Assembly: GCA_029860045.1 (NCBI GenBank)
Contig: JAOUBY010000009.1
Span: forward strand, 1 to 47,425
Reading direction: 5' to 3'
Length of the DNA: 47,425 bases
From: Gammaproteobacteria bacterium
Lineage (GTDB): Bacteria; Pseudomonadota; Gammaproteobacteria; UBA9214
Below the pieces are notes generated by a model, which did not search any database, had not been told where the DNA came from, and saw nothing but the letters and a program-made list of their open reading frames with translations. The translations under genes were made by a program, and so were the position numbers. Below, in pieces: positions 31,803 through 34,127 of this stretch (position 1 is its first letter; every line of letters starts with the position of its first letter).

Positions 31803-31879
31803 TTTTGCCAGCCCATAAGTTATTGTTATCGACCAATAAATGTGCGCCCCGGCGGCTCCGGTCCGGAACCGGTTCACTA

Positions 31880-31908
31880 TTGCCGTACGGCACAAACTAG
31901 GGGAAAAT
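31880..31908 (+). promoter_or_regulatory. Candidate sigma70-type promoter (TTGCCG-17 nt-GAAAAT)
   Basis: -35-like TTGCCG at 31880-31885, 17-nt spacer, -10-like GAAAAT at 31903-31908. Confidence 0.4.
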
Positions 31909-31913
31909 AGCGC

Positions 31914-32026
31914 GCCTTGCCTTAAGGTAAGGCCAGAGGGCCGGCGGGAGATTCACTCCAGGCCAGGCCAACGAATCACAGATTGATTGCCTCGGTGTGA
32001 ACGAACCTGCACCGGAGGCTTTTTTT
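31914..32026 (+). ncRNA. Candidate small RNA or leader upstream of tkt
   Basis: Begins 6 nt after a -10-like element with an 8-bp hairpin (GCCTTGCC-TTAA-GGTAAGGC, 31914-31933), then a second structured region (GGCCGGC..GGGAG-ATTCA-CTCC..GGCCAGGCC), and ends in an intrinsic terminator. Confidence 0.5.
31989..32026 (+). terminator. Intrinsic terminator upstream of tkt
   Basis: GCCTCGGTG...CACCGGAGGC stem (one bulge) followed by TTTTTTT. Confidence 0.75.
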
Positions 32027-32138
32027 GTCGCTGAACACAGGCTCATGCGCGCGGCGCAGAACCCGCGACACGGCCGGCAGGCTGCCGGATTATGGCGACA
32101 ATATAAACAGTATTCAAAATCAGAAACAGGAGAAAAAC

Positions 32139-34127
32139 ATGGCTCAGCGTAAAGATCTAGCCAATGCAATCCGTGCACTCAGCATGGATGCCGTGCAGAA
32201 AGCCAATTCCGGTCATCCCGGTGCTCCCATGGGAATGGCGGACATCGCCGAGGTACTGTGGAACGACAACCTCAAGCACAATCCGGGCAACCCGAACTGG
32301 TCTGACCGTGACCGTTTTGTCCTGTCCAATGGTCATGGTTCCATGTTGATCTATTCGCTGCTGCACCTGACCGGTTATGAGCTGACACTGGATGACCTGA
32401 AGAACTTCCGCCAGTTGCATTCCAAGACCCCGGGTCACCCGGAGTACGGTTATGCGCCCGGTGTGGAAACCACCACGGGTCCGCTCGGCCAGGGCATCAC
32501 CAACGCAGTGGGTATGGCCATCGCAGAGCGTTCACTTGCCGCCGAGTTCAACCGTGACGGTCACGAGATTGTCGACCACAACACCTGGGTGTTCCTGGGC
32601 GACGGTTGTCTCATGGAAGGCATATCGCACGAGGCCTGTTCGCTGGCCGGTACGCTGGGGCTCGGCAAGCTGACTGCATTCTGGGACGACAACGGTATTT
32701 CCATTGATGGTCATGTTGAAGGCTGGTTCACGGACGATACGCCGAACCGCTTCAAGTCCTACGGCTGGCATGTCATTGCCGGTGTCGACGGCCATGATCC
32801 GGTTGCCCTTCAGAAGGCTATTGATGAAGCACGCGCTGTCACCGACAAGCCGTCCATGATCTGCTGCAAGACCATCATCGGTTTCGGTTCGCCGAACAAG
32901 GCCGGCAGCCATGACTGCCATGGTGCGCCGCTGGGCCAGGATGAGATCGCACTGACCCGCAAGGAACTGGGCTGGGAGCACGATGCCTTCGTGGTGCCGG
33001 ATGATATTTATGCCGCATGGAATGCAGGGGACAAGGGTGCAGCGGCGGAAGCCGACTGGAACGAGAAACTGGCTGCCTACAAGGCGGCACACCCGGAACT
33101 GGCCGCCGAGTATGAGCGTCGCATGGCAGGTGATCTGCCGGCGGACTGGACAGCAAAATCGGAAGCGTTTGTTGCCAGTGTGAACGACAAGGCCGAGTCG
33201 CTGGCGACGCGCCAGGCATCGCTCAAGTCTATTGAGGGTTATGCGCCGCTGTTGCCGGAAATCTTCGGCGGTTCCGCCGACCTCGGCTGTTCGAACCTGA
33301 CCGAGTGGTCCGGTTACAAGCCGATGCGTGCCGATACACCGGACAGCAACTACATCAACTACGGTGTGCGCGAGTTCGGCATGTCCGCCATCATGAACGG
33401 CGTTGCGCTGCATGGCGGACTGATTCCGTTTGGCGCCACCTTCCTGATGTTTTCCGAATACGCGCGTAACGCCCTGCGTATGGCGGCGCTGATGAAGATA
33501 CGGAGTATCTTTGTTTATTCGCACGACTCCATCGGTCTGGGCGAGGACGGCCCGACCCACCAGGCCGTCGAGCAGATTCCGACCCTGCGCTTGATTCCCA
33601 ATATGTCGGTTTGGCGTCCGTGTGACACGGTGGAAAGTGCAGTGTGCTGGAAGGATGCGATCGAGCGCCAGGACGGTCCGAGTTGCCTGATCTTCTCGCG
33701 CCAGGGCCTGCCGCACCAGCAGCGCAGCAGTGAGCAGATTGCCGCGATCAGCAAGGGTGGATATGTCCTGAAAGACTGCGACGGCACGCCGGATGCCATC
33801 ATCATTGCAACCGGTTCCGAGGTGGCGCTGGCCATGGATGCGGCCGAGCAGTTGTCAGACAGGAAAATCCGTGTTGTTTCCATGCCGTCGACCAACGCCT
33901 TCGATCAGCAGAATGATGCCTACAAGGAATCTGTGCTGCCGGCAGCGGTTACCGCGCGTGTTGCGGTAGAGGCTGCGGTCACCGATGGCTGGTACAAGTA
34001 TGTCGGCATCAATGGCAAGGTTGTTGGTATCGACCGCTTTGGTGAGTCTGCCCCGGCCGGCGAACTGTTCAAGGAGTTCGGCTTTACGGTTGAGAATGTC
34101 GTCTCCGCCGTCAACAGCGTCCTCTAA
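32139..34127 (+). CDS. tkt: Transketolase
   Basis: [49 protein letters not shown], thiamine-PP region; RBS CAGGAG. Start trimmed from 32025. Confidence 0.97.

Follow-up and report, generated by a model that had tools for sequence, protein, structure and literature searches.

In Escherichia coli, many RNAs derived from 5ʹ untranslated regions (5ʹ UTRs) arise by premature termination of transcription (PMC7815308). In the leader of the E. coli greA gene, GraL, about two thirds of the transcripts stop, and the resulting RNA acts both in cis and in trans (PMC6829880). Leaders with premature terminators, such as rimP-leader, have also been found by a genome scan (PMC2965389). In Legionella pneumophila, the tkt-gap-pgk-pyk operon is transcribed from an RpoD start that has been mapped ahead of tkt, and Rho-dependent termination inside gap is prevented by CsrA (PMC5338858). 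Our search, which covered part of the literature, found no paper on a tkt leader, a tkt sRNA or a terminator preceding tkt.

The element described here precedes a tkt-gap-pgk-pyk-fba cluster in a gammaproteobacterial metagenome-assembled genome, on a contig (C111) of 47,425 nt that was analysed as a whole and is called the window below. The order of the source genome consists of a single family with 23 genomes, and the named relatives are uncultured Gammaproteobacteria or Ectothiorhodospiraceae assemblies. The source genome contains two matches to the RuBisCO large-subunit family. The genes ahcY and metK lie upstream on the opposite strand, followed on the plus strand by the gene of an AhpC/TSA-Redoxin protein, the element and the tkt cluster. 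The gap from the redoxin stop codon to the tkt ATG (31803–32138) is 336 bp long and holds no plausible open reading frame (ORF), in agreement with the original prediction of a gap of about 340 bp without a supported ORF. That prediction had also placed a promoter, a first stem, a second folded region and a terminator with a T7 run in this gap, and direct reading of the sequence found each of them where it had been placed (Table 1). Comparison with phage DNA gave no match for the element.

Table 1. Features of the tkt upstream region, in positions of the window.
Feature	Position	Strand	Basis or remark
Putative regulator-binding site, ATAAGTTATTGTTAT-N4-CAATAA	31815..31839	+	−99 to −75 from the predicted start; function predicted
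Predicted operon promoter, CTATTGCCG-N9-AACTAGGGGAAAATAGCGC	31877..31913	+	In 20/20 relatives with the tkt start
Predicted short terminated leader RNA, about 113 nt	31914..32026	+	Promoter and terminator conserved
Hairpin 1, 8 bp, GCCTTGCC-TTAA-GGTAAGGC	31914..31933	+	Seen directly
Hairpin 2, apical GGAG-ATTCA-CTCC	31939..31969	+	Fold
Intrinsic terminator, bulged stem GCCTCGGTGTG...TGCACCGGAGGC and T7	31989..32026	+	Fold and terminator scan
Remaining tkt 5ʹ UTR, predicted to be reached only by read-through	32027..32138	+	Conserved ATTCAAAATCAGAAACAGGAG before the ATG
tkt, first gene of tkt-gap-pgk-pyk-fba	32139..34127	+	Pfam
Downstream cluster genes gap, pgk, pyk and fba	34205, 35340, 36558 and 38112		Pfam

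The promoter is composed of a −35 element TTGCCG (31880–31885), a 17-nt spacer and a −10 element GAAAAT (31903–31908), followed by a GC-rich discriminator, and the predicted transcription start is at 31914–31916. The −10 element fits only four of six bases and a scan for the strict sigma-70 consensus misses the promoter; its conservation in relatives is far above chance. The region before the tkt start is contained in 20 of the 23 genomes of the order (tkt is missing or cut in the other three), and the promoter was present upstream of tkt in every one of them. In pairwise comparisons of 19 sequences (G014 excluded), the body was on average 45% identical, the promoter 87% and the terminator 76%. 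The motif at 31815–31839 includes an inverted repeat, TTATTG-N8-CAATAA. With at most three mismatches it recurs in 17 of the 20 relatives between variable flanks, at a nearly constant spacing of −96 to −100 from the predicted start, and it is possibly an activator site.

The terminator was detected by a terminator scan, with a stem at 31989–32019, the T7 run at 32020–32026 and energies of −13 to −17 kcal/mol. It was present in 19 of the 20 genomes of the order, the exception being G014; strong terminators occurred in 4% of shuffled leaders. In the alignment, 97% of the cells of the stem were paired, and two pairs had compensatory changes. Conservation upstream of tkt in the relatives extends to the promoter and the terminator, the latter with compensatory changes, and to their place relative to tkt, and not to the body. 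The single discrete transcript of about 113 nt that the original prediction had placed between these two ends is well supported, as a predicted RNA, by the conservation of both. As modelled, the terminator looks strong, so that there might be little read-through.

The order keeps the bases directly after the T-run, 32027–32034 (GTCGCTGA in the window and GYCRCTGA in relatives), but not the sequence beyond. We scanned the stretch from the terminator to tkt for a second sigma-70-like promoter, a search that would miss promoters unlike that consensus, and found none better than those of shuffles in 17 of the 20 genomes and none conserved in place. Three genomes (G006, G008 and G002) have a candidate promoter, ATGACA-16-CAAAAT/CATTAT, 17 nt before the ATG. 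The lack of a second promoter downstream of the terminator is consistent with partial read-through into tkt. Folding z-scores of the 5ʹ UTR past the terminator were ordinary in nearly all genomes, indicating no structured region there. Pairing between the leader RNA and the 5ʹ UTR that follows it was rejected, as within-genome pairs had no advantage over cross-genome ones (−50.3 vs −48.6, sd 6.7).

The element had been proposed to be a structured RNA, which holds for the window itself: the fold of 31914–32026 reached −49 kcal/mol (z = −3.56), and none of 200 dinucleotide shuffles was as good. It does not hold for the order, as the fold of the body, the approximately 75 nt between promoter and terminator, is not kept across the 20 relatives. 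The body had a median folding z of −1.0 over the 20 genomes, among which the value of −3.7 in the window is the extreme, and the excess folding is for the most part unremarkable. The leader length in relatives was 109–134 nt. Hairpin 1 is not shared by the relatives. At the position of hairpin 2, many relatives have some hairpin, with pairs kept in 70% of cells and changes on both sides in an alignment that is itself uncertain. RNAalifold returned only the terminator and a spurious promoter helix, with no conserved fold of the body. Neither a conserved ligand-binding or sensor fold nor an order-wide seed was found in the body, and a weak motif, AATTTCG-N2-GTGGT, recurs ahead of the terminator in genera g2, g4 and g5 only. 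The 5ʹ end of the RNA, GCCTTG (31914–31919), resembles the 5ʹ arm of the terminator, GCCTCG (31989–31994), and is a potential pairing partner of the 3ʹ arm.

The locus was further compared with known RNA families and regulatory devices. Rfam, riboswitches included, gave no match at the locus at either gathering or relaxed thresholds (E ≤ 5), which bears out, as far as Rfam goes, the earlier view that it is neither 6S RNA nor a known riboswitch. The sole match to 6S RNA (RF00013) in the genome is on another contig (C49:5262–5441). In the genus of the window, the 5ʹ arm of the terminator pairs upstream no better than in shuffles, and no antiterminator conserved across relatives was found. A suggestive candidate was seen in genera g2, g4 and g5, where the 5ʹ arm could pair with a stretch like the 3ʹ arm of the terminator (such as GCATCGGG or GCACCCGG). 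A leader-peptide attenuator was rejected, as there was no ORF common to the relatives and none in the leader of the window. The T7 tail is compatible with Hfq. In genome and class searches, the terminated segment turned up only at the tkt operon.

Beyond the order, we used a pattern search of 369 genomes of the class together with a model, R1, built from the promoter, body and terminator, and both indicated that the promoter recurs in many other gammaproteobacterial families. About 33 of the 39 pattern matches precede tkt or prk-tkt, as determined by tblastn and locus reading, and the remaining matches were about equal in number to the control matches. Among 108 tkt upstream regions forming an even sample of the class outside the order, the motif was found with at most five mismatches in 29, compared to 0 in the reverse-strand control. 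The class-wide consensus is CTATTGCCS-N9-AASTAGGGGARAATA, followed by a GC-rich discriminator and a pyrimidine-rich start. Its spacer is unusually conserved, and in the various families the consensus occurs almost exclusively at tkt or prk-tkt operons (e.g., L103, L105, L109 and L111). In several other families, the tkt start codon lies 73–160 nt after the promoter and the terminator is absent. Because the same promoter there directly precedes tkt without a terminator, it is, judged from these comparisons, the operon's own promoter and not a private sRNA promoter.

Where prk stands before tkt, the promoter sits ahead of prk (G348, locus L147; G228, locus L117), and in two further genomes a prk-like gene, probably degenerate, lies between the promoter and tkt (G093, locus L148; G222, locus L149); prk was called by reading the translation and not by a family search. 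The prk-like gene of the latter two apparently lacks the usual GDSAAGKTT loop. In G228, another, strong hairpin with a T-run (−23.1 kcal/mol) lies behind the promoter and ahead of prk. Strong terminators were found in 7 of 43 promoter-bearing leaders outside the order vs 4% of shuffles; terminators there are modestly enriched and not the rule. More unusual than the leader itself is how widely the promoter is conserved together with tkt, and this promoter may carry a site for an undescribed regulator.

We consider it fairly probable that the element is a terminated, attenuator-like 5ʹ leader of tkt-gap-pgk-pyk-fba that gives both an RNA of about 113 nt and a read-through mRNA. Judged from the sequence, RNA polymerase would start at the promoter that stays with the tkt operon across Gammaproteobacteria and would meet an intrinsic terminator about 75–105 nt past the transcription start; because the promoter appears to be the operon's own in other lineages, this terminator would lie inside the tkt leader in the present order. 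Some transcripts would end at 32026 as the discrete RNA, and the others would extend into tkt and probably into the genes that follow it. How much transcription reaches the operon would be set by the terminator, which may also regulate it.

The original prediction had left the choice between a stand-alone sRNA and a terminated leader. The leader is favoured because the promoter is predicted to be tkt's own elsewhere, no second promoter is evident and the body is unconserved. A gene for a trans-acting sRNA that merely chances to precede tkt, with tkt using its own promoter past the terminator, would agree with the conserved promoter and strong T7 terminator, with the kept leader length, with the promoter-like sequence close to the ATG in three genomes and with the weak motif before the terminator in three genera. 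We regard it as unlikely, since the same promoter appears to serve tkt itself in other families, the body is only 45% identical and has no order-wide seed, the segment never occurs away from the operon, and no second promoter is conserved. A leader might also do both, as GraL does, its terminated product acting in trans (e.g., as an sRNA or a sponge) while read-through feeds tkt. The anatomy is that of the E. coli greA leader, and 5ʹ-UTR-derived RNAs with functions of their own are known in E. coli, but the body lacks a conserved seed, and such a dual role seems improbable here.

The terminator could instead be mainly a passive brake or insulator with a fixed, unregulated read-through. In its favour, no antiterminator, peptide or sensor fold was found, and the terminator is missing from most of the other families that have this promoter; however, the terminator is almost completely conserved over the order and shows compensatory changes, and we hold a mainly passive role to be very unlikely. 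The feature is real and conserved, and it is most likely of the terminated-leader kind, which is already known. For the terminated leader, we suggest only tentatively that it forms a regulated termination switch before a Calvin-cycle and glycolysis operon, responding to some signal, on top of a widely kept promoter to which an undescribed carbon-flow regulator may bind. If read-through is regulated, a single site would jointly set the enzymes of the pentose phosphate pathway or Calvin cycle and of glycolysis in an uncultured lineage with RuBisCO genes. The association of this promoter with tkt in different families offers a starting point in the search for a shared regulator of central carbon metabolism. 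The comparison also illustrates how an ancient promoter can acquire a terminator, thereby yielding a small RNA.

Among the described systems, the tkt leader resembles GraL in its layout: the promoter belongs to the gene, a short leader ends in an intrinsic terminator, read-through reaches the gene and no clear classical antiterminator is present, although for tkt these points come from sequence comparison. As in the GraL type, the leader is predicted to share its promoter with the downstream gene, and an intrinsic terminator lies between the start and the coding sequence in 19 of 20 genomes. The two differ in the gene concerned and have no known sequence relation, and GraL, with its in trans and autoregulatory action, has only about 19 nt before its terminator. 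With leaders of the rimP-leader type, the locus shares a conserved intrinsic terminator within the 5ʹ UTR, whereas tkt is absent from the main text of that survey and no conserved alternative structure was found in the tkt leader here. 6S RNA is likewise a small structured gammaproteobacterial RNA and differs in that it has a separate gene in this genome. The Legionella system concerns the same operon with a promoter upstream of tkt, and premature termination there splits pentose phosphate from glycolysis genes; however, that termination occurs at a Rho-dependent site in gap and is released by CsrA, whereas here an intrinsic terminator stands before tkt.
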